A stretch of 25,715 nt of DNA from a virus: IMG/VR virus record IMGVR_UViG_3300031884_000122, positions 1-25,715 of that record. The stretch is one strand, 5' to 3'. The notes beneath the pieces are model-generated. The model was not told where the DNA came from, did no database searches, and was given only the letters and a program-made list of their open reading frames with translations. A program made the translations under genes and the position numbers. Below are positions 3 to 25,005 of the stretch, one piece after another (position 1 is the stretch's first letter; each line of letters starts with the position of its first letter).

Positions 3-839
3 GAACTTATATCTGACAGCACTGCTGCGGAAACAACGCAAGCTACAGGTCTAACTGCATTTGGCTCAACTGGGTTTACGATTGGCGCTGAAGCCAAATT
101 AAACACCAGCACCGCCACCTACGTCGGCTGGCAGTGGAAAGGTGGCGGCACAGGCGTCTCCAACACCAATGGCAGCATCACGTCCACCGTGTCGGCTAAC
201 ACGACCGCAGGGTTCTCTGTGGTGACTTATACGGGTACGGGTGCAAATGCGACCGTTGGACATGGACTTGGTGTTGCGCCATCTATGGTTATTACAAAAA
301 GCCGCAGTTTAGCGGGAAGCCATTGGACAGTTTATCACATTAGTCTTGGTAATACGGGTGCTTTATTATTAGATACAACAGCTTCTACATATACCAGTAG
401 CACTTATTGGAATAGCACATCACCGACATCAAGTGTGTTTTCAGTTGGTGTTGATGGTGGCGTAAACAATTCTGGTTCAACTTTTGTCGCTTACTGCTGG
501 GCCGCAGTAGCTGGCTACAGTGCATTTGGATCGTACACGGGTAATGGCAGTACGGATGGACCGTTTGTGTACACAGGATTTCGTCCTCGTTATGTATTAA
601 TTAAACGCACAGATAGTACAAGTGATTGGTATATTTGGGATACGTCAAGAGACACATACAACGTAGAAGCGGCTACATTGCTTGCAGATACATCTGGTGC
701 AGAAACATCGGCTACGTCTATTGATGGTCTTTCTAATGGCTTTAAATGCCGTTCTGCTACGGTTGTTAATGCTTCTGGTGGAACATACATATATGCGGCG
801 TTTGCAGAGTCGCCTTTTCAGAGCGCAAGGGCCAGATAA
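3..839 (+). CDS. DUF7483-type phage tail fibre protein (5' end cut by window)
   Basis: The frame is open from the left edge, so the start lies outside the window and 278 C-terminal residues are visible. The visible part holds two related beta-rich segments. The second contains the pattern SYTGNGSTDGPFVYTGFRP followed by RYVLIKRTDS and WYIWDTSRDTYN, which I recognise as the DUF7483 domain common at the C-terminus of phage tail fibres or virion surface proteins. A role in host contact is inferred from family context. The stop overlaps the ATG of the next gene by one base (TAATG), so translation is probably coupled. The protein ends in S-A-R-A-R, which resembles the end of the inserted HNH gene that follows. 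Confidence 0.8.
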   Translation, partial: ELISDSTAAETTQATGLTAFGSTGFTIGAEAKLNTSTATYVGWQWKGGGTGVSNTNGSITSTVSANTTAGFSVVTYTGTGANATVGHGLGVAPSMVITKSRSLAGSHWTVYHISLGNTGALLLDTTASTYTSSTYWNSTSPTSSVFSVGVDGGVNNSGSTFVAYCWAAVAGYSAFGSYTGNGSTDGPFVYTGFRPRYVLIKRTDSTSDWYIWDTSRDTYNVEAATLLADTSGAETSATSIDGLSNGFKCRSATVVNASGGTYIYAAFAESPFQSARAR

Positions 840-844
840 TGCCA
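828..844 (+). repeat. Left copy of imperfect direct repeat flanking the HNH gene
   Basis: AGGGCCAGATAATGCCA here matches AGGGCTCGATAATGGCA at 1343-1359 in 14 of 17 positions. Each copy spans the last codons, the stop and the overlapping start of the next gene. Part of the likeness may come only from the shared need for an SD-like AGGG and a TAATG overlap. Confidence 0.5.
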
Positions 845-1354
845 GCAGCAATTGATTTATCAGGGCAAAGATTTGGAATGTTAACCGCTATAAAACGGAC
901 GGGAAAATTTACGCCAGCGGGTCAGCATATATGGGAATGTGTTTGTGACTGCGGTAAAACTTCTGAAACCAGAATTGGTAACTTAACTTGTGGAAGGTCA
1001 AAATCTTGTGGCTGCCTCCAAAAAAGAAAAGGCAAAGATCATCCTAATTGGAAACATGGATTAAGCAAAACTAAAAAGTATTATAACGAGGGATTTATGC
1101 GCGTAAAATACGGCATAACCCCCGAAAAATATAATGAAATGCTTGAAAATCAAGGCGGCGTTTGCGCTATTTGTAAAACAAAGCCGCAATTTGATACTCG
1201 GAAAAAACGTCTTTCAATAGACCATTGCCATACCACAGGGAAGGTTCGCGGACTATTATGTGATGCATGCAACCGTGGTATAGGTATGCTAAAAGATGAC
1301 ACCAGCGTTCTTATGAATGCTATAAATTACCTCAACTCCAGCAGGGCTCGATAA
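839..1354 (+). CDS. Free-standing HNH / recombination endonuclease VII-like nuclease
   Basis: This is a 171-residue nuclease. The N-terminal part (residues 8-62) has a Cys-rich motif, W-E-C-V-C-D-C-G then S-C-G-C-L, as seen in mobile phage HNH proteins. The C-terminal part (90-155) has the endonuclease VII plan: C109-x2-C112, D128-H129-C-H131, then C141-x2-C144-N145-R. The four cysteines fit the structural zinc site, and D128/H129/N145 the catalytic site of the T4 gp49 family. It sits between two virion genes and is joined to both by one-base TAATG overlaps. The base composition looks more A/T-rich than the structural genes around it, which fits a mobile origin. Homing is inferred; resolvase activity is less likely with this N-terminal domain. 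Confidence 0.9.
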   Translation: MPAAIDLSGQRFGMLTAIKRTGKFTPAGQHIWECVCDCGKTSETRIGNLTCGRSKSCGCLQKRKGKDHPNWKHGLSKTKKYYNEGFMRVKYGITPEKYNEMLENQGGVCAICKTKPQFDTRKKRLSIDHCHTTGKVRGLLCDACNRGIGMLKDDTSVLMNAINYLNSSRAR

Positions 1355-5094: not shown

Positions 5095-5285
5095 AACGTT
5101 TATTGTTGCTTGCCATGTTGCCTCTTGCCGCATGCATGCCCAAGCCAGAAACCAAGATTCTCGATATGTCCTGCAACTGGGTAAAGCCTATTTATGTCCA
5201 CAAGGCTGACAAGCTAACGGACACGACGGCAAGCGAAATTCTTGCCCATGACGACAAGTGGAAGAAGTTCTGCGGGACCAAATGA
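5091..5285 (+). CDS. Outer-membrane spanin lipoprotein (Rz1-like)
   Basis: A 64-residue protein with a lipoprotein signal: M-K-R, hydrophobic core L-L-L-L-A-M-L-P, lipobox L-A-A-C at residues 12-15, so the mature form would begin at C15. The rest has the pattern C-N-W-V-K-P-I-Y, then K-A-D-K-L-T-D-T-T-A-S-E-I-L-A-H-D, which recurs in phage Rz1-like proteins. The ATG at 5091 is chosen over an in-frame GTG at 5079 because GGAG at 5081-5084 is a well-spaced SD and the signal peptide begins there. The stop overlaps the endolysin start (ATGA). Confidence 0.8.
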   Translation: MKRLLLLAMLPLAACMPKPETKILDMSCNWVKPIYVHKADKLTDTTASEILAHDDKWKKFCGTK

Positions 5286-5794
5286 AAAACAACTTCGAGC
5301 AATGCTTTTACCTCGTGCTTAAAAATGAGGGCGGATATGTCGATAACCCTGCGGACCCCGGCGGTGCGACCAACTTAGGATGCACTAAAGCAGTTTGGGA
5401 ACAGTATATTGGACATTCGGTAACCAAGGACGATATCAAGGCACTAACGCCCAACGACGTCATGCCCCTGTACAAAGCCAAGTATTGGGATACGATAAAG
5501 GGAGACGATCTTCCTGCGGGTGTGGATTATGCCGTCTTTGATTTTGCCATCAATTCGGGGCCGTCCCGCGCCGCAAAAGCCCTTCAGTCGGTACTCAATA
5601 CCAATCCAGACGGACAAATCGGACCCGCCACGCTTCGCGCTCTTGAAACGTCAAACCCTCGTGAGATTGCGACAAAAGTATGCGAAGCCCGATTAGCCTT
5701 TTTGCAAAGTCTGTCAACCTATGCTAATTTCGGTAAAGGCTGGTCGCGGCGTGTTTCGGAAGTCGAAAACACGGCATTTAACATGGCTGGGTAA
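5282..5794 (+). CDS. Endolysin, glycoside hydrolase family 108
   Basis: A 170-residue muramidase. The signature E16-G-G-Y-V-D-N-P-A-D-P-G-G-A-T-N at residues 16-31 is that of GH108 lysozymes; E16 is the expected catalytic acid. The pattern F-D-F-A-I-N-S-G near residue 85 and the C-terminal G-Q-I-G-P-A-T-L-R-A-L (peptidoglycan-binding type 3 region) complete the usual length. It cleaves the peptidoglycan glycan chain during lysis. No signal peptide or SAR segment is seen, so it should need the holin. The ATG at 5282 is preferred over a GTG at 5258, since it overlaps the lipoprotein stop as ATGA. Confidence 0.93.
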   Translation: MKNNFEQCFYLVLKNEGGYVDNPADPGGATNLGCTKAVWEQYIGHSVTKDDIKALTPNDVMPLYKAKYWDTIKGDDLPAGVDYAVFDFAINSGPSRAAKALQSVLNTNPDGQIGPATLRALETSNPREIATKVCEARLAFLQSLSTYANFGKGWSRRVSEVENTAFNMAG

Positions 5795-10187: not shown

Positions 10188-10664
10188 ATGGAACCAACGA
10201 TTAGATTAGGAACACCCGCCGACGAAACCGCCATGCTAAAGCTGGCGCTAGATGCGTGGGAAGAAAATGGCATTAAGGACGTTAACCCGCAGAAAATGCT
10301 AGGCATGATCAAGCCTGCTTTGTATCTTTGGCAGGGGCTAGTTGGAATTATCGGGGAGCCGGGCCAAAGGATTGAAGGCGCGGTCCTTTTACGAATGAGC
10401 CAGATGTGGTATTCGGATGCTTGGATGCTCGAAGAGAAGGCAATTTTTGTCGATCCCGAGTTTCGAAGCGCAAAGGGCGGTAGGGCGCGTCGCCTTTGTG
10501 ATTTCTCGAAGAAGGTTGCTGATGAGCTTAACCTTCCATTGATTATCGGCGTTCTGTCAAATCATCGTACAGAAGCCAAAGTGAAACTATACGAGCGCTC
10601 GTTCGGCCCACCGGCTGGCGCTTTCTTCCTATACAACGTCCAGACCGGACACGCGGAGCAATAA
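10188..10664 (+). CDS. GNAT-family N-acetyltransferase
   Basis: A 158-residue protein starting I-R-L-G-T-P-A-D-E-T, the usual first strand of GNAT enzymes. It also has a beta4 strand (E-K-A-I-F-V-D-P-E-F-R, residues 83-93) followed by the acetyl-CoA pyrophosphate-binding loop S-A-K-G-G-R-A-R-R-L (94-103) and a helix. GNAT enzymes move acetyl from acetyl-CoA to an amine. The substrate is not known. Copies are frequent in this place among virion genes of podoviruses, so the target may be a virion or host protein (inference). Spacing to both neighbours is a single base. Confidence 0.85.
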   Translation: MEPTIRLGTPADETAMLKLALDAWEENGIKDVNPQKMLGMIKPALYLWQGLVGIIGEPGQRIEGAVLLRMSQMWYSDAWMLEEKAIFVDPEFRSAKGGRARRLCDFSKKVADELNLPLIIGVLSNHRTEAKVKLYERSFGPPAGAFFLYNVQTGHAEQ

Positions 10665-10665
10665 C

Positions 10666-13600
10666 ATGGGTGGTAAAACTGGAACAACGACTTCAAGCGT
10701 AGCCATTCCACCAGAGGTATTGGCTCGGTACAACGCTGTCAATACTCAAGCTCAAGCTACAGCCGGTACGCCGTTTCAGCAATATAGCACTGATCCAAAC
10801 GCGTTTGTGGCCCCCCTCAACCAAGAGCAGAACGCGGCAACGGCACAGACAAATCAATATGCTAATGCGGCCCAGCCTTCAATCGCATACGCCCAGCAAG
10901 GCTATACCCCTGAGGGTTTTCAGCAGGGCGTTCAGGGTTATATGAACCCATTCTTGCAGAATGCTATGGGCTCAACGGCGGCCCAAATGAATAACGTCAA
11001 CCAGCAGCAGCAACAGCAAATGATGGGTTCGGCTATTGGTGCTGGCGCGTTTGGCGGCGATCGAGCCAATATTGGCCTTGGTGCGCTTGAAAACCAGCAG
11101 AACCTTGTAGAAGGCCAGACGCTCGGCAACATGGCAAGCCAAGGCTTCCAGAGCGCCGCACAGAACTATCAGACGGGCCTAGGCCAGATCGGAGCACTTG
11201 GGGTTCAAGGCCAGCAGGCAGGCTTGCAGGGCGCTCAGGCCATGTTGGGTGCCGGTACGCTGGGTCAGCAAACGACGCAGGCTGGACAGTCGGCACTGTA
11301 CAACCAGTTCCAGCAGCAGCAGGCCTATCCATTCCAAGTGGCGCAGTTCCTCGCGAACATCGCGGAAGGCACCGGCGCACTGTCTGGCTCGACCACAACC
11401 ACGGCGGCACCGCAGTCATTCTTCTCCGATGCACGGCTCAAGGAAGACATCAAGCGCGTTGGCACGGCCAAGAATGGTCTGCCAATCTACACCTTTAAGT
11501 ACAAGGGCGATGATACCGAGCAGACCCATACCGGTTATATGGCTCAGGACGTTGAAAAGGTTCATCCAGAGGCCGTCGGCGAATCGAATGGCTTTAAGAC
11601 CGTTAATTATGAACAAGCTTCGAAGCCGGTGCATCGGGCGTTTGGGGGTTTAAATTTAAACCCAGCATCGACCCTGATGGGTGGAATGGGCCAAGGAAGC
11701 CAAGACCCATTGGTACTACCTCCCGTCAATGGTGGCGTTGTTCCCAATGGAAATCATAATGGGCATGACAATGTTGAGCATGGCAGCTTTGGTTTTTCTG
11801 ACATGGGCGGCCAGCAGGCATCCGACCGTTCTGATGGCGCATGGGCCCGAGGCGGTGCCGCAAACTCTGAAGGTGGCGTCGTAGCCCCGCAGCATGCCGC
11901 AGAAGGTTATTTTAACGGCGGCGATGTCGTATCGCCGTATGATCTATCGGCTATTCTGGCCGCGCAGAAAGAATCGTATGCACCGTTCCAGCAAGGCGGC
12001 ATTTATGGCGGCCAAGCTGGCGGAACTCCGGGCGGTAAAAGCTATGTCCCTTCGGCCTCCCTTGCTGTTCCGCATCTTGGCGTTGCAAGCGCAGCATCAG
12101 GCCAGCATGGCGATACGCTTATGGGTGACTTGCAGCAGGCCACAAGCGGTGCTGACACGGTCAAGAAGGCCTATGGATACGGTCAAGATATTATTGGCCA
12201 TCCTGCTACTGCTGCCAAGGCGGCTATTCCTGCTGACCCAAAAACTGGCGCAGCGGCTGTAGCAGCCGTCCCTGCCCAAAATGCAACTGGCCTAGAGTGG
12301 TTAAAAACCCTTGGTCAGCCACAAGGGCAGGCCCACGGCGGTGTTGTTGGCTATGCCGACGGCGGCGGCGTCGAGCCTTACCAGACCGACGATCCAATGT
12401 CGCAAGTGGTTTCGGACACCGAAAAAGACAAAGGCCAGCATGGCCTTATGACGGCTCAAACCCCTACTGGGCAGTCATCGAGCACGTTGGGTGACCTTAG
12501 CAAGATTGCGGCTATCCCCGGCGAAATTTCTGGCCTTGGTACGATGGCTTCTACCATTGGTTCTGGCGTCGGAGCTGCAGCAAGTGGCATCGGCAGCTTC
12601 CTTTCATCGCTTGGGCCTTTTGCTCTTGCGCTGAAGGATGGCGGTGTTGCCGAGCGCGAACATCATGCCGATGGCGACAGAGTTGGTGATGCTCCAGCAG
12701 GTGGCGTTGTTGCTCCTGCAGATGATAGTTTTGACACATCGAATGATGGTTTCACGAGTGCGGTTCCTCAGCATTGGAAGCCATTACTTTCTGCGATTAA
12801 GCAGCCAGAAAGCGGCGGTCAATACGACATTCAAAATGGCGGCAAGGGTCGAGTTGACCTTAATGCGCCACATCCCGGAGTTGTTGGGCCAGATGGCACG
12901 AGCACCGCTACGGGCGCTTACCAATTTGTCAAGGACACATGGGATCGGACAACTGGCAACGCGCCAATGACCCCTAAAAATCAAGATGCAGCAGCGATTA
13001 AGCTTGCGTCGCAAGATTACAATAAGCGTACCGGACGCGATCTGGATGCTGACCTTCAAAGCAACGGTGTTACGCCAGAAATGAAGGCGGCGCTTTCCCC
13101 GACATGGGCAGGCCTTGCAGATCGTCCAGCGCCGAATGCCGCGCCAGCCGCAAGTCAATTGAATGATGGTAAAGGTGGATTCCAAGCGCCTGATGGCGAC
13201 CAACCACAACAACCATCCCCGCTTAAAGGTATTGGCGATGCGCTTATGAGCGAACAGTTTCTTATCCCACTTCTGTCGGGCATTGGTACAATGGCTGGGT
13301 CAAACAGCCGGTATCTTGGTGCTGCCATTCTTCAAGGCATTGGTGGCGGCGCTAAGGCTTATGAAGACGTGCAGAGCAATCTTGCCCAGCGCGGCCTAAC
13401 CAATGCCCAGCGTGACGTCCAATCGACGTTGGCTGCTGGCAACGCGCAGACCGTAGCTCAGAACGCCTTCTTTAAGGGTCCAGATGGGCAGACTTACGCC
13501 ATGACCCCGCAAGGGCCGATGTTGCAAGGTCTGTGGACGCAGGCTCTTGCCCAAGGAAAATACATCCCTACGGTCGGCTACGACCAGATGATACAGATGA

Positions 13601-14535
13601 TTTCTAAAATCCCCGGCGCTCAACCGATTGCGCAGGGCAACGCGGCGCAACCTACCGATCCAAACGCGCCTCGTCCAACGCAGGCCGTCCCCGGCATGCC
13701 TACTGGCAACGAACCAGCTCCTCCGCCAAACCCATATACGGGCGTAGGCTCGGCTGGCAATGCAAAGTTTAACACAACGTATCAGCAATCATTCCTTGAT
13801 CAGCCGACGTTCCAAACAGCGAAAGCTCAATCCGATAAAATTGAGGAAGATACTAGGCTTGCTGCTGAAAATGCCAAAACGCAAGGGGGAACACTTAATC
13901 AGCTTGCAAGCACGATTTTAAGGACGAACCCCAATAGCTGGAATGCCACCGGTGTTAATAACGAGTACACCAATAATGTATCCAATTATTGGAATGACTT
14001 AGTCAGCCGCTTGGGCGGCAGCATGGGTGCAAATGCCGAGCAATTAAAGGGTTGGAAGTTAAACCCTGAAGAAGTTGGCTCAAAGCAAGCTGCTGATAAA
14101 ATTTCTGGCATGCTTCAGTTTGCCCAATTGAATAGCAACGACACTCATTCCTTGGGTGCATTGCAAACGGCTGGTCGAGTTATTCCATCGACGGCCAACT
14201 CATATGAGGGTGCCGTTGATATTCTTTCCGGTTTGTTTGCTGACAAACAGGTTACTATTGATAAAAACGCTTACCTTCAAGAATATAAAAAGTTGGCAAG
14301 CCAAAAAAGCCCTGTTTTTGCAAATCGCTATCTTGCACAAGACGCACTTCAATCGTTTGGGTCGGACCATAGCAGCAATCAATATGGCACCGAAAAAGAA
14401 CGCCTTAAAAAGGTTCTTGCTGCTCGTACCCCTGATGGCGGGTCTCTCTTTGACAAGCTTTATTCTGGAGGGAAACCAGACAATACCCTTGATGAAAAGC
14501 TTCCCGGTATGGGCCGCTACATCCGCAATAACTGA
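10666..14535 (+). CDS. Giant virion protein with S74 autoprotease and lytic transglycosylase domains
   Basis: A 1289-residue protein with four regions. Residues 1-250 are Gln/Asn/Gly-rich, with a six-Gln run at 113-118. About 253-322 form an intramolecular chaperone/peptidase S74 domain (S254-D-A-R-L-K259-E-D-I ... G-Y-M-A-Q-D-V-E-K-V-H-P-E-A-V-G). S254 and K259 have the six-residue spacing of the S74 catalytic dyad. About 702-815 form a lysozyme-like, lambda R-type (GH104-like) transglycosylase domain (Q-P-E715-S-G-G-Q-Y ... G-T-S-T-A-T-G-A-Y-Q-F), with E715 the likely catalytic Glu. The rest is Ala/Gly-rich or helical, with spaced G-G motifs. It is likely an internal ejection protein that opens the cell wall for DNA entry. 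S74 domains usually end a protein; here nearly a thousand residues follow. Confidence 0.85.
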   Translation: MGGKTGTTTSSVAIPPEVLARYNAVNTQAQATAGTPFQQYSTDPNAFVAPLNQEQNAATAQTNQYANAAQPSIAYAQQGYTPEGFQQGVQGYMNPFLQNAMGSTAAQMNNVNQQQQQQMMGSAIGAGAFGGDRANIGLGALENQQNLVEGQTLGNMASQGFQSAAQNYQTGLGQIGALGVQGQQAGLQGAQAMLGAGTLGQQTTQAGQSALYNQFQQQQAYPFQVAQFLANIAEGTGALSGSTTTTAAPQSFFSDARLKEDIKRVGTAKNGLPIYTFKYKGDDTEQTHTGYMAQDVEKVHPEAVGESNGFKTVNYEQASKPVHRAFGGLNLNPASTLMGGMGQGSQDPLVLPPVNGGVVPNGNHNGHDNVEHGSFGFSDMGGQQASDRSDGAWARGGAANSEGGVVAPQHAAEGYFNGGDVVSPYDLSAILAAQKESYAPFQQGGIYGGQAGGTPGGKSYVPSASLAVPHLGVASAASGQHGDTLMGDLQQATSGADTVKKAYGYGQDIIGHPATAAKAAIPADPKTGAAAVAAVPAQNATGLEWLKTLGQPQGQAHGGVVGYADGGGVEPYQTDDPMSQVVSDTEKDKGQHGLMTAQTPTGQSSSTLGDLSKIAAIPGEISGLGTMASTIGSGVGAAASGIGSFLSSLGPFALALKDGGVAEREHHADGDRVGDAPAGGVVAPADDSFDTSNDGFTSAVPQHWKPLLSAIKQPESGGQYDIQNGGKGRVDLNAPHPGVVGPDGTSTATGAYQFVKDTWDRTTGNAPMTPKNQDAAAIKLASQDYNKRTGRDLDADLQSNGVTPEMKAALSPTWAGLADRPAPNAAPAASQLNDGKGGFQAPDGDQPQQPSPLKGIGDALMSEQFLIPLLSGIGTMAGSNSRYLGAAILQGIGGGAKAYEDVQSNLAQRGLTNAQRDVQSTLAAGNAQTVAQNAFFKGPDGQTYAMTPQGPMLQGLWTQALAQGKYIPTVGYDQMIQMISKIPGAQPIAQGNAAQPTDPNAPRPTQAVPGMPTGNEPAPPPNPYTGVGSAGNAKFNTTYQQSFLDQPTFQTAKAQSDKIEEDTRLAAENAKTQGGTLNQLASTILRTNPNSWNATGVNNEYTNNVSNYWNDLVSRLGGSMGANAEQLKGWKLNPEEVGSKQAADKISGMLQFAQLNSNDTHSLGALQTAGRVIPSTANSYEGAVDILSGLFADKQVTIDKNAYLQEYKKLASQKSPVFANRYLAQDALQSFGSDHSSNQYGTEKERLKKVLAARTPDGGSLFDKLYSGGKPDNTLDEKLPGMGRYIRNN
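11646..11663. repeat. Perfect 18-bp palindrome inside the giant virion gene
   Basis: GGGTTTAAATTTAAACCC equals its own reverse complement. It codes for G-L-N-L-N-P just after the S74 domain and is far richer in A/T than the sequence around it. Two TTA codons lie in it. No function is established. Confidence 0.9.
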
Positions 14536-20208: not shown

Positions 20209-21967
20209 CAGGCTTCCTATTGTAGGCAATCACTTTGTACCAAGCGCCTTCTTTTTGGTAAGTGATGGTATCGGGTGCATTGCCGTTAAGATCCGTGTAC
20301 ATAGCACGTTCTTTATAGCCTTGCGACCAGTTTGGATCTTTTGGCACCCAGAACGAAAATTTCCGATACGATGTACGCACATCGATGCGCCACATTTCCC
20401 GCCCAGCCTTGCTTAGGGTATGGTTTGCCTTCCATTCTTCCACCACATCTGTCTGCCGCCTTGTGGGGTCATCTTTCATCGCCTTAAACTCAGCGATCAG
20501 CTTTTCGTTCGGATCGACGATCTCCCCCTTACATTCTGAGCAATACCGTGCGGCTATGTCATTATCAGCCTCGCAGTGGGGGCAGGTCTTTGTGGTCCAA
20601 CGAGATCCGCACTGTACTAGTTGCCCCGCCACGAGTTGCTTTGATTGGCACCGCCGACCGTAATGGGCGGGAATCATGCCATGCTCGGACACAATCGTAA
20701 TGCCATCGAGATCGCAGAAGTAACCAGAAGGACTAATCTCGAACCCCGATGGGTTTGGTCTGGCTTTAAATTCATTTTCCACCTCGCATAATGGGCAGCG
20801 CACCTTCAGGTAAAGCGCGTTTTCCTTTGCCTTTACCGTCTTGATCAAGGGGTTAAACACGTCACCGTCGGGGCAGTGGCGCTCGAGGTTCTCGGCATAA
20901 TCTAGGATCAGGCAGTCATCCTTACCCTCGAACAGGCGCAGGCCTCGACCGATGATCTGCTGCAGCAGGCCCACTGATTCTGTCGCCCGTAGGATCGCGA
21001 TCAAATCGACATGGGGCGCATCGAAGCCCGTGGTGAGCACCTGCACGTTGACGAGGTACTTGATCTCTTGGGCCTTGAACCGCGCTATGATGGCGGCGCG
21101 TTCTTGACTAGGCGTATTCCCCGTCACAAGGGCAGACAAGCCCCGTGGCAGGCTTTCCATGCACTCTTGGGCATGTTGCACCGTGGCGGCAAAGACCATC
21201 ACCCCTTGGCGCTCTCTGGCCTGCGCCACCACATCCGCAATGATTGCCGACGTTTTGCGGCCTTGGCCGATAAAGGCGCGATCAATGTCCTCGCTGTCGA
21301 ACTGATTGCGGCTATTCAGCTCCATGTCGAGGGTGTGATATGATTCGGCGTGTATCTGCCCGATCACCGGCTTTGTCAGGTAGCCCTGATCAATCAGCTC
21401 CTGCGCCGTAATCCTGTCTACGCAGACCGAAAAATATGGGTTGATGGTTTCGTGTTCTCCGACTGGCTTACCATCTGGCCACTGGCCGAAGATGTACCCA
21501 GTCCCCATCCGATAGGGCGTGGCAGTCATCCCCACGACGCGGATGTTGGCATTCTGTTCGCGAATGGCATTGACGATGTTGCGGATGGTCGGCGTGATCC
21601 CGTGGGCCTCATCGATGACGATCATCCCGAACTGGCTGCCGAAGCGCCTGATGCGGTTCTTCACCGTCAGGGGAGTGCCAAACACCACCGGGTGCTTAAG
21701 CGACTTGGCACCGGCGCTTGCCGAGAAGATCGAGCAGGGGTTTCCGGTCGCGCGGTATTTTTCGCTATTCTGCACCACAAGCTCCGCGCTAGGCGCAAGG
21801 CATAGGACGTGTTTGCCGCCCGATATGCGGTGAATAGTGTCCGCAATCGCCGCAATGATGTGGCTCTTGCCTGCGCCGGTAGCCGCCTCGATGCAGCAAG
21901 GTTCAGCCGTTTTCTTCACCCACTGGATGATCTGATCGTGCGCTTTTTGCTGATAATCACGCAGCAC
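20195..21967 (-). CDS. SF2 DEAD/DEAH-type helicase with zinc ribbons
   Basis: A 590-residue protein. Motifs: Q-x-x-A region at 5-10, Walker A A-A-T-G-A-G-K-S (28-35), D-E-A-H (119-122), motif III T-A-T (148-150), motif V T-T-G-F-D-A-P (312-318), motif VI Q-Q-I-I-G-R-G-L-R (336-344). About 391-479 hold Cys pairs, C-P-L-C, C-P-H-C and C-S-E-C, likely two zinc ribbons. It should move on or open duplex DNA with ATP during phage replication or recombination. The start is GTG at 21967 with GGAG seven bases upstream; it overlaps the GIY-YIG gene by 11 bases. Whether it is the replicative helicase cannot be told here. Confidence 0.92.
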   Translation of the reverse strand: MLRDYQQKAHDQIIQWVKKTAEPCCIEAATGAGKSHIIAAIADTIHRISGGKHVLCLAPSAELVVQNSEKYRATGNPCSIFSASAGAKSLKHPVVFGTPLTVKNRIRRFGSQFGMIVIDEAHGITPTIRNIVNAIREQNANIRVVGMTATPYRMGTGYIFGQWPDGKPVGEHETINPYFSVCVDRITAQELIDQGYLTKPVIGQIHAESYHTLDMELNSRNQFDSEDIDRAFIGQGRKTSAIIADVVAQARERQGVMVFAATVQHAQECMESLPRGLSALVTGNTPSQERAAIIARFKAQEIKYLVNVQVLTTGFDAPHVDLIAILRATESVGLLQQIIGRGLRLFEGKDDCLILDYAENLERHCPDGDVFNPLIKTVKAKENALYLKVRCPLCEVENEFKARPNPSGFEISPSGYFCDLDGITIVSEHGMIPAHYGRRCQSKQLVAGQLVQCGSRWTTKTCPHCEADNDIAARYCSECKGEIVDPNEKLIAEFKAMKDDPTRRQTDVVEEWKANHTLSKAGREMWRIDVRTSYRKFSFWVPKDPNWSQGYKERAMYTDLNGNAPDTITYQKEGAWYKVIAYNRKPDEVP

Positions 21968-22466
21968 TTTTCTTCTCCAAATATTCTATATAATCTATTA
22001 ATTGCCAACCAGTTACGGCCAATTTAGGTTTAAATGGAGTGCCATGCGCTGACAGCCCCGGCTTCGGTGGGATAAGAATATGGCCTAAGGTGCCATCGTC
22101 TATAAGTTTGTTAAAAGTTCCCCCACCAATATCTAAGATTTCGCATACCTCATACGGCCTATAAATAGGGTTAAACCGAACAATTTTTGCAGTCAAATCT
22201 CGCCTTGATTCTTGCGACCTTTCTTCTCTATAAATTTCTTTTGTTTTTTGAATATTATGTAATGGTTTTTCCTGACGAATAGCTAACGTTTCAGCTTTTA
22301 ATGCTTCTTCCCTTGTATCAAAATGTTCGATTGTAACATTACTGATAGTTTTGAACCATGCGGAATGATCCGCATGTTGGCCTAGCCTGTTCAAAGCGCT
22401 TAAGGAAATTCCCACATAAAGAAGCGTTCCGTCTTTATCAAAATGGCGGTAAAGGCTCGTTCTCAT
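21957..22466 (-). CDS. GIY-YIG endonuclease with C-terminal helix-turn-helix
   Basis: A 169-residue protein. Residues 4-75 form a GIY-YIG nuclease domain (L-Y6-R-H, L-L-Y17-V-G-I-S, R27, H31, catalytic Glu E59 in E-E-A-L-K-A-E-T, then P-L-H-N). Residues 100-130 look like a MerR/excisionase-type helix-turn-helix (Y-R-P-Y-E-V-C-E-I-L-D-I-G-G-G-T-F-N-K-L-I-D-D-G-T-L). This is the plan of a small homing or mobile nuclease that finds DNA through its C-terminal domain. Base composition looks more A/T-rich than the helicase next to it. Its first 29 bases overlap the end of the upstream gene, and its last 11 overlap the helicase. Confidence 0.85.
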   Translation of the reverse strand: MRTSLYRHFDKDGTLLYVGISLSALNRLGQHADHSAWFKTISNVTIEHFDTREEALKAETLAIRQEKPLHNIQKTKEIYREERSQESRRDLTAKIVRFNPIYRPYEVCEILDIGGGTFNKLIDDGTLGHILIPPKPGLSAHGTPFKPKLAVTGWQLIDYIEYLEKKSAA

Positions 22467-22926
22467 TTTTTAAATCTTCCATTTTATTTAGATTGACCTG
22501 TGGCACCATCCATGCCGGTGCGCCCTTGCCGTTGGGATCGTAGAGGTATTTGTCCTGCTTGGCTTCGTTGGTTCGTATCCAACCGGCCATTGTGTAGGTA
22601 GGCATGCGATTAATCACGAGGACGACAATCTCGTCCTTCTTGTCGTTTGCCCGGATGATCAGCTTGCCATGCTCGTGCTTGGTGGATCGCACCTGCATGA
22701 CCCCGACATCCGGTGCCTTGAATGTATTCACCGATGGCTCGTAGTAGACATCCAGCCACTTCGCAAAGGCCATTTCGGCGGCTGCCCCATCGACATCAAT
22801 CTGCCACTGCGAATCAGTTGGCGAGTGCTTGTTTTGAACGAGATTTCCAAGCGACGATATGCTTCGCATGTTGCCGACAAGCCCGGCAACCATGAGTTCG
22901 GGCTTGGTTAGTTTAATGGTATTCAT
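22438..22926 (-). CDS. Phage protein of unknown function (possible nuclease fold)
   Basis: A 162-residue protein. Patterns: P-E-L-M-V-A-G-L-V-G-N-M-R (9-21), D-G-A-A-A-E-M-A-F-A-K-W-L (47-59), S-V-N-T-F-K-A-P-D-V-G-V-M-Q-V-R (66-81), then I-R-A-N-D-K-K-D-E-I-V-V-L-V (91-104) and M-P-T-Y-T-M-A-G-W-I. I have seen this family as an unassigned protein in other phages. The order E, D, Q-x-R with beta strands suggests a PD-(D/E)XK-like fold, which is inference. The ATG at 22926 overlaps the methyltransferase end by 14 bases. Its C-terminal nine residues are encoded in DNA shared with the GIY-YIG start. Confidence 0.65.
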   Translation of the reverse strand: MNTIKLTKPELMVAGLVGNMRSISSLGNLVQNKHSPTDSQWQIDVDGAAAEMAFAKWLDVYYEPSVNTFKAPDVGVMQVRSTKHEHGKLIIRANDKKDEIVVLVINRMPTYTMAGWIRTNEAKQDKYLYDPNGKGAPAWMVPQVNLNKMEDLKNENEPLPPF

Positions 22927-24487
22927 TGGCAATCCTTTTACCTATCCAAGCCATTACTGGCACAGCCATAGAATTGCCAAGAGACTTGTAGCGTGGACCA
23001 TCGGCTGCGCCGGGGATGGCGGTATAGTCATCTGGAAAACCCTGTAGGCGTTCACATTCTCGTGGGGTCAGACGGCGGACGGCCATAATATTTCCAGTTA
23101 TGGACCCATTAAAACAATCTGTTCCAATAGACTGCATATACGCCACGGCCATAGGGTTTTTTGCCTGTAATGTGGTAGATTGATTATCGCCTACAGATGG
23201 TTCTGACATATGTGCGCTGAAAGTGACGGGTTGCACAATATAATCCCCCCCTTGGTTACCGCCCGTAGGCCCAGCGGCCATAACAGGTTGTGCAACATCC
23301 ACTTCACGGGCTTTATAATCTTTACCGGAGTTCATTGGCATAATTGAATAAGGCTGCGCCACATAAGTTGTACTTTCATGCTTATCAGCCTTTGATGCAC
23401 CAGAACGTAAACAATGCCCAAGATCAGGATTTTCACCTACACCGAAGGGAACTGGTTGGGCTATATAATTAGTTTGCTTCATTCCTGAATCTGCCGCCAA
23501 CGCTCCTACAATTTGTCCATCCCCATTTATATATCGCACTTCATCCCGTGTGTTTTGTTGAAATGCCATTGGTTGCATCACCGCCCAATTGCTATCTATT
23601 CCTTCAGTTCCTCGCATACCCTTACTAATGCCTGCCGTAATTGGTCCGGTAATATGGGCTACAATGCTTGGAGATTGGAAACCAGTGGTTTGATTAGCAC
23701 CTACCGATAATGTATCGGATACCTCCTCAGTGTATTGGGGCGCTACTCCTTCAGAAACATGTGAATTAGTCATTATAGGCAAGGTTTCTGTTTCTGGATC
23801 GTAACGCTGACCAACGCCTGTTGTAAGGCATTTGGCAGTTTCTTTCCCCTTGCTTCTGCACGGCGGAGTATCCCTTCGCAAGCCTTCGCGCTCAAAAAGA
23901 ACTTCTGCGGGATCGAATCCGTCTCGAGCACTTGCGACAACGAACAGACGACGGCGTCGTTGGGCCACTCCAAAGTATTGAGCGTCGAGAACTCGCCACG
24001 CCGCACGTCTTTTCGGTCCCATAACCATACCTGAGTTTGTCCATTTGCCCCCTGTCGGGATGAGGGGTTCATCGTTTCCCACAAGGGCACCAAGGAAGCA
24101 TCCGAAGGCGTTGTCCTTAACGGAGAGCACTCCGGGGACGTTTTCCCATACGATGATTGTTCCATCAGATCGAAGATCGTCAATTGCATCTGCAAGCCTT
24201 ACAAATTCTAGGGTCAAGTTACCACGGTCATCACCTAAACTATTACGAAGCCCTGCAACAGAGAAGGCTTGGCAAGGTGTGCCACCAACTAAGATGTCAG
24301 CGTCTTTTATCCAATCTTGTTCACGCAAAACGGTAAAGTCGCCATGTAGAGGTACATCTGGATAGTGGTGGGTTAACATCTTACGCGGAAATGGTTCAAT
24401 CTCACTGAATGCTAATGGTTCCCAACCTAATGAGTGCCAAGCAACGGTGGCGGCTTCAATACCAGAGCATACTGATAAATATTTCAT
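22913..24487 (-). CDS. DNA cytosine-5 methyltransferase (Dcm type)
   Basis: A 524-residue enzyme that methylates carbon 5 of cytosine in DNA using SAM. Motif I is V-C-S-G-I-E-A-A near the start. Motif IV is G-G-T-P-C72-Q-A-F-S with the catalytic Cys. Motif VI is E-N-V-P-G (116-120), VIII is Q-R-R-R-R-L-F (176-182), and IX/X lies at the end (R-R-L-T-P-R-E-C-E-R-L-Q-G-F-P, then S-L-G-N-S-M-A-V-P-V). The recognition region, about 200-465, is unusually long and holds repeated Q-P-V/M motifs. The ATG overlaps the adenine-type methyltransferase stop by one base (TGATG). No restriction partner is seen, so self-protection against host restriction is the likely use. Confidence 0.95.
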   Translation of the reverse strand: MKYLSVCSGIEAATVAWHSLGWEPLAFSEIEPFPRKMLTHHYPDVPLHGDFTVLREQDWIKDADILVGGTPCQAFSVAGLRNSLGDDRGNLTLEFVRLADAIDDLRSDGTIIVWENVPGVLSVKDNAFGCFLGALVGNDEPLIPTGGKWTNSGMVMGPKRRAAWRVLDAQYFGVAQRRRRLFVVASARDGFDPAEVLFEREGLRRDTPPCRSKGKETAKCLTTGVGQRYDPETETLPIMTNSHVSEGVAPQYTEEVSDTLSVGANQTTGFQSPSIVAHITGPITAGISKGMRGTEGIDSNWAVMQPMAFQQNTRDEVRYINGDGQIVGALAADSGMKQTNYIAQPVPFGVGENPDLGHCLRSGASKADKHESTTYVAQPYSIMPMNSGKDYKAREVDVAQPVMAAGPTGGNQGGDYIVQPVTFSAHMSEPSVGDNQSTTLQAKNPMAVAYMQSIGTDCFNGSITGNIMAVRRLTPRECERLQGFPDDYTAIPGAADGPRYKSLGNSMAVPVMAWIGKRIANEYH

Positions 24488-25005
24488 CACTGTCCTACGA
24501 AGATTGTGGGTTGCGGGTCGTTAAAATCAAACAGATACCAGCAGCAATTATCTTTGCCAGCCGTATTTCCAAACCACTTCACCCGCCCCACCGATACAAT
24601 TTTCTTGCAGTGCGGCAGGTAAGGCGTGGCCTGCTTGGTGTGCATCCAATCCGCATCAAACAGCAACCATGTCGGCCCCCAAAACAAGGATCTCTCGATG
24701 ATCTGGTGCATCACATCGCGGCCCCAAGGCGGGTTTGTAATCACAACGTCGGCGCGGTTCATGTCTTCGCGTGTCAAAAATGACGCATCTGCCTGTTTCA
24801 CGATCTTGTGGCGAGGCTCGACGTCATAAGCAGCAACACACTTGTGGCCATGTTTCTGCAAAATGCGGATCAAAGCCCCGTCACCGGCGCAAGGCTCCGC
24901 ATAATATGACCCCTTGGGTAGGTGAGAAAGAAGCGGCAGGACCGCCTCCTCCGGTGTTGCATAGGCATCGAGCTTGTGCGGTTTAAAGTTGCTACGCTTG
25001 CCCAT
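24487..25005 (-). CDS. Adenine-type DNA methyltransferase (NPPW class I SAM enzyme)
   Basis: A 172-residue SAM-dependent methyltransferase. Motif I is A-E-P-C-A-G-D-G-A-L (36-45), and motif IV is I-T-N-P-P-W-G (89-95), the form seen in N6-adenine (and some N4-cytosine) enzymes. C-terminal residues V-K-W-F-G-N-T-A-G-K-D-N form a feature often seen in small phage enzymes of this kind. No separate target-recognition domain is evident. It overlaps the exonuclease gene by 14 bases at its start and the cytosine enzyme by one base at its end, so it belongs to one translated unit with both. Confidence 0.85.
   Translation of the reverse strand: MGKRSNFKPHKLDAYATPEEAVLPLLSHLPKGSYYAEPCAGDGALIRILQKHGHKCVAAYDVEPRHKIVKQADASFLTREDMNRADVVITNPPWGRDVMHQIIERSLFWGPTWLLFDADWMHTKQATPYLPHCKKIVSVGRVKWFGNTAGKDNCCWYLFDFNDPQPTIFVGQ

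Follow-up and report, generated by a model that had tools for sequence, protein, structure and literature searches.

The S74 domain and other parts of the protein

The window, meaning here the whole stretch of 25,715 nucleotides analysed (IMG/VR virus record IMGVR_UViG_3300031884_000122), encodes a virion protein of 1289 residues whose parts and neighbours are listed in Table 1. Residues 254-304 of this protein match the Pfam family Peptidase_S74 (PF13884; E = 7e-13, 49.1 bits against a curated cut-off of 22), and together with a short C-terminal end the domain extends to about residue 322 (nt 11631). A Pfam search of the whole record found no other S74 domain, and the S74 profile also matches the S74 chains 6f45, 3gud and 7dc3 in the PDB. 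The original prediction, which had placed an S74 domain with a Ser-Lys dyad at 11422-11631, behind a Gln-rich part, is accurate to one codon: the domain is internal, with 968 residues downstream of it, the 253 residues before it contain 18.6% Gln, and the dyad S254/K259 is in place. The Ser is the first residue of the domain and the Lys lies five residues further, with the same spacing as in S911/K916 of endoNF and S587/K592 of mouse MYRF (PMC8326128).

In PHROG, residues 1-321 are similar to families of DNA ejection and virion structural proteins, with matches that extend to the C-terminal end of the profiles (phrog_6121, 112-390 of 392; phrog_4287, 4-385 of 392). In an AlphaFold2 model the N-terminal part is all-helical at low confidence (helices 16-33, 53-78, 82-125 and 130-237), with no beta-helix stalk upstream of S74, and S74 itself has a well-defined core (pLDDT about 76-90). 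A PDB fold search with the S74 monomer model matched no S74 structure, perhaps since the solved S74s are intertwined trimers, and in BFVD the same model matches other annotated S74 proteins. The fold search with the N-terminal part and S74 together gave helical matches only and was uninformative.

Table 1. Features of the S74-bearing gene and its two neighbours in the window
Feature	Position	Strand	Basis
Acetyltransferase-like gene directly upstream	10188..10664	+	phrog_1249, E 0.0009; synteny
Virion (ejection-type) protein, 1289 aa, probably a fusion	10666..14535	+	Open frame; full-length IMG/VR homologues; PHROG ejection/structural families
N-terminal part, residues 1-253	10666..11424	+	Gln/Ala/Gly-rich; predicted all-helical; phrog_6121, phrog_4287
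Peptidase_S74, short form (residues 254-322) lacking the C-terminal coiled-coil helix	11425..11631	+	Pfam, AlphaFold2, PDB profile
S254 codon, predicted nucleophile; predicted scissile bond F253-S254	11425..11427	+	Aligned with the 3gud Ser and the MYRF site
K259 codon, predicted general base	11440..11442	+	Spacing as in endoNF and MYRF
Most hydrophobic 19-residue stretch, residues 638-656, AASGIGSFLSSLGPFALAL	12577..12633	+	Hydropathy
Putative lambda-R-like lytic transglycosylase region, residues 701-810	12766..13095	+	PDB profile; Pfam match below cut-off
Hydrophobic Gly-rich conserved segment, residues 856-935	13231..13470	+	phmmer and profile search
Next virion-type gene, 641 aa	14547..16472	+	Open frame 12 nt downstream; same order in homologous loci

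No wall enzyme was detected when the whole protein was searched against Pfam, NCBIfam and the PDB, and the transglycosylase was reached only by searching its region together with its relatives. A profile built from four relatives matches lambda lysozyme (3d3d, 1am7) with an E value of 0.002 at about residues 716-780, and the Pfam family Transglycosylas (PF06737) matches the window protein below its cut-off (E = 0.0016). Lambda lysozyme is a lytic transglycosylase. E715, the Glu of an ESGG motif that is conserved in four relatives, is likely to be the catalytic residue of the region, and the identity as a lytic transglycosylase is supported more weakly than that of S74. The window also contains a separate GH108 endolysin gene at 5258-5794 (+), and the putative transglycosylase would therefore not be the sole wall enzyme encoded.

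One, two or no S74 among the homologues

More than 200 loci (numbered L below) were collected from IMG/VR, from GTDB genomes and from named phages. Counts are based on 97 distinct complete proteins of 774-1767 aa with the N-terminal part of the window type, from which the distant unfused proteins L022-L024 and L028 were excluded. An internal S74 is present once in 65 of these proteins, twice in 29 and not at all in 3 (L026, L111 and L176), and every S74-bearing protein has at least 532 residues after its last S74. The internal position, which had been noticed as an isolated oddity, is thus the rule within a large phage family (94 of the 97). The S74 match is not due to chance, because the domain recurs at the homologous position in about 100 distinct relatives, and its internal position in 94 distinct complete homologues likewise rules out an assembly artefact.

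The second S74 copy in the 29 relatives begins at residues 511-864 and bears its own Ser-Lys pair. In a tree of 82 N-terminal parts, the two-copy state requires 16 changes, at least 11 of which are forced by well-supported branches, and the second copy has therefore often been gained or lost. The first copy is cleanly absent between conserved flanks in L176 when compared with L137 (61 of 66 residues identical in the left flank) and in L111 when compared with L123; two sister pairs (L105 vs L097 and L033 vs L032) show a clean absence of the second copy. These clean absences and the shifting two-copy state are as expected of what may be a movable joint.

Other parts of the chain vary as well. 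The similarity of the window protein to L004, L008, L009, L017 and L018 ends abruptly at about residue 911-983, and the C-terminal part differs in each of these five, giving a mosaic C-terminus. A different split is seen in L050 and L065-L070, where a separate gene starts before the equivalent of residues 856-935. The wall-enzyme slot is occupied by unrelated enzymes in L008, L029, L050, L065, L082 and the window, a modular swap within one protein; the kinds are lambda-R-like, SLT, GH24-like lysozyme, amidase-like and, by eye, M15-like. The record of L066 (138254 bases) contains six S74 domains, among them those in two frames of 1.5-1.6 thousand codons that have an internal S74 and lie far apart; it possibly represents two related phages or a concatemer.

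Gene neighbourhood and probable fusion

The acetyltransferase-like neighbour also precedes the S74 gene in several of the named unfused phages, and the order found in this cassette is tail genes, acetyltransferase, S74 ejection protein, wall-hydrolase ejection protein and a further internal protein. In the window the S74 ejection protein and the wall-hydrolase protein of this order form one chain, which is followed by a product of 641 aa with no significant Pfam or PHROG family. The unfused relatives have an ejection protein of 300-500 aa with the same short S74 at its end. Among relatives with a second type of N-terminal part, 57 complete proteins stop just after S74, the exceptions being one with a longer tail and one without S74. 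In nearly all unfused relatives the following gene begins at -8 to +12 nt, that is, abutting or overlapping.

Pfam matches in 43 of these next genes comprise 10 SLT, 4 Phage_lysozyme2, 3 Transglycosylas, 2 M15_3, 2 M15_2, 2 CHAP and 1 SLT_3, where one gene may match more than one family. The corresponding matches in 36 fused proteins are 4 SLT, 3 Hydrolase_2, 1 Phage_lysozyme2 and 1 SLT_4, and GH24-type lysozymes were recognized by eye only in L008, L050 and L065. Separate S74 and follower genes are found in PAE2, RHph_I3_18, RHph_N2, pCB2047-C, vB_OspP_OH, phiM5, MW202496 and EBPR podovirus 2; MW202675 has the fused form. For phiM5, the annotation gives the homologous S74 protein and the products of the next three genes as present in phage particles. 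Given that the unfused proteins stop immediately behind S74 and are often followed by a peptidoglycan hydrolase gene, the best reading of the window protein is that of two neighbouring ejection-cassette genes that have been fused with S74 at the joint, which agrees with the fusion suggested in the original prediction. This reading rests on gene position and shared kinds of wall enzyme, and the comparison is unrooted, so that it fits a fusion or a fission.

Among the closest known systems are the P22/LUZ24-like ejection proteins that end in S74 (phrog_6121 and phrog_4287; for example phiM5, pCB2047-C, EBPR podovirus 2 and vB_OspP_OH). They share with the window protein the short S74, the dyad, the helical type of N-terminal part and the gene order; however, in these phages S74 closes the protein and the next gene encodes the wall hydrolase, whereas the window has one chain for both. 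P22 gp7/gp20/gp16 and T7 gp14/gp15/gp16 have an analogous cassette position and role. T7 gp16 also carries a transglycosylase, and none of these P22 and T7 proteins is known to have an S74.

A conserved Ser-Lys pair without the coiled coil

To keep the dyad out of the search model, an S74 profile was built that starts after the domain's first six residues. With this dyad-free profile, Ser and Lys were found in 97 of 97 and then in 216 of 216 distinct S74 copies, so that the conservation of the dyad does not stem from the search model itself; three copies listed as odd proved to be register shifts (SDRNTK, SDRGDK). Among 67 similarity-filtered copies, only the S, the D, the K and one G are invariant. 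The presence of the dyad in all 216 copies therefore favours retained chemistry. Its conservation is not tied to fusion, because the unfused proteins keep the dyad too.

On the other hand, the C-terminal coiled-coil helix alpha4 is absent in the window S74 and in all ejection-type relatives. A Gly/Pro break follows the S74 core at a median of 11 residues in first copies and 13 in second copies, and none of the 31 second copies shows a coiled-coil-like stretch; 2 of the 121 first copies do, though not immediately after the core. We treat this helix as defining for the trimeric, tested members of S74 and not for the Pfam family. S74s that have been tested require a trimer. In MYRF, alpha4 forms a C-terminal triple coiled coil that is the main driving force of trimerisation, and L692A or R695A blocks cutting (PMC8326128); a mutation in the leucine zipper, L683A, likewise causes a defect (PMC3742443). 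The view of the domain as a trimerising folding switch is not borne out in the form proposed, given that alpha4 is missing throughout the relatives and that the upstream part is predicted to be alpha-helical rather than a triple beta-helix. The records of L004 and L009, two close relatives of the window, encode separate fibre-type S74s that bear the helix (L276 and L277; LVPVLIKAIQELDAKFEAYK, IVGVLIEAIKELRAEVVDLRSKM), and the short form is therefore specific to the ejection proteins.

Several relatives are named 'tail fiber domain-containing' or 'tailspike' in databases, names that derive from the S74 hit and that would make the protein a tail fibre or spike with S74 as its usual chaperone. 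This is highly improbable and is largely refuted by the helical N-terminal part, the wall-hydrolase domains, the internal-virion neighbours and the coiled-coil fibre-type S74s encoded separately in close relatives. The endosialidase-type S74s (K1F endoNF, GA-1 gp12 and the T5 L-shaped fibre) share with the window domain the Pfam family, the Ser-x4-Lys dyad and the core sequence, but they form the fibre C-terminus, preceded by a beta-helix and with a trimeric coiled coil as their last part, whereas the window S74 is internal, follows a helical part and lacks the coiled coil. It is also evident that S74 is not confined to the C-terminus of fibres, as had been assumed: it ends ejection proteins here, and in MYRF it is internal and active (PMC3742443). 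MYRF and MrfA share with the window protein an internal S74 (the ICA domain) with large parts on both sides, and once the chain is cut, their S74 is retained by the C-terminal piece (PMC3742443, PMC8326128). MYRF is in this sense the working precedent. It differs by its alpha4 coiled coil, by its beta-helical stalk and as a eukaryotic membrane transcription factor rather than a virion protein.

On balance we lean towards a fused ejection cassette of a short-tailed phage in which S74 cuts between F253 and S254 and the oligomer is provided by the helical part. We infer the following course, its timing and the source of the oligomer included. A single chain would be synthesised from the fused gene; its helical ejection part would oligomerise and build the S74 active site in place of the C-terminal coiled coil; and S74 would then cut the F253-S254 bond, as S74 does elsewhere. 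Cleavage before S254 is the likely outcome predicted from the aligned site, and its products would be a helical ejection protein of 26 kDa and a piece of 107 kDa (computed masses) that starts with S74 and carries the putative transglycosylase. Cutting would thereby restore two separate products like those that the unfused relatives make from two genes. Freeing the wall enzyme, which had been proposed as the purpose, is not supported in that form: some relatives (L044) have S74 with no wall enzyme seen, and L026, L111 and L176 have the N-terminal part in a long protein that lacks S74. These three relatives show that cutting can be dispensed with.

It is somewhat unlikely, though it deserves weight, that the short S74 merely folds, oligomerises or chaperones the ejection protein during assembly and leaves one chain of 133 kDa in the virion. 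The coiled coil that MYRF requires for cutting (PMC8326128, PMC3742443) is absent in all copies, and the remaining chain is intact in the S74-less relatives. However, Ser and Lys are kept in every one of the 216 copies although most other positions vary, and if the domain were purely structural, the dyad should have been lost in some of them.

Hydropathy was measured in 19-residue windows, as the fraction of a protein's windows that are as hydrophobic as the one before S74. Second and C-terminal S74s lie directly after one of the most hydrophobic windows of their protein (median fractions 0.002 and 0.009), which suggests that S74 may cap membrane-active segments of ejection proteins. That it acts mainly as such a temporary cap, with cutting freeing the end of the segment, is nevertheless unlikely, since no hydrophobic segment precedes the first copies, that of the window among them (median fraction 0.28). 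The window protein would retain only this first, less hydrophobic site for a cap. Residues 638-656 correspond to the site where 29 relatives carry the second S74; the window protein has none there, and its hydrophobic segment is still present.

If cutting at the joint does occur, a broader and more tentative proposal is that S74 serves as a reusable self-cutting joint, used once or twice between the modules of a single chain without the coiled coil or beta-helix otherwise considered necessary, and yields a self-processed polyprotein for injection and wall opening. S74 would then be a self-processing joint in DNA-injection proteins besides a fibre-release device, several injected parts could be made from one gene with no separate protease required, and S74 catalysis would be independent of the coiled coil. 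If the domain does not cut, the absolutely conserved Ser-Lys pair requires another explanation. Either way, this natural small variant of about 70 aa makes the trimer requirement of S74 directly testable. Already known are the S74 domain itself, its occurrence as the last domain of ejection proteins (from annotation) and its internal placement in MYRF. In the literature searched we found no description of fused ejection/wall-hydrolase proteins with an S74 that is internal, in some cases double, and free of the coiled coil; the main text of the phiGT1 paper, which summarises virion mass spectrometry, is silent on S74 or cutting. BFVD and UniProt hold large proteins of uncultured phages that are annotated solely by their S74 domain.

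Elsewhere in the window, two genes may encode homing-type endonucleases: an endonuclease VII/HNH-like one at 839-1354 (+), in the block of virion genes, and a GIY-YIG one at 21957-22466 (-), adjoining the helicase gene. A pair of adjacent DNA methyltransferase-like genes lies at 22913-24490 and 24487-25005 (-), and the first of these frames is unusually long (525 aa), with its C-5 cytosine methylase match in two stretches.
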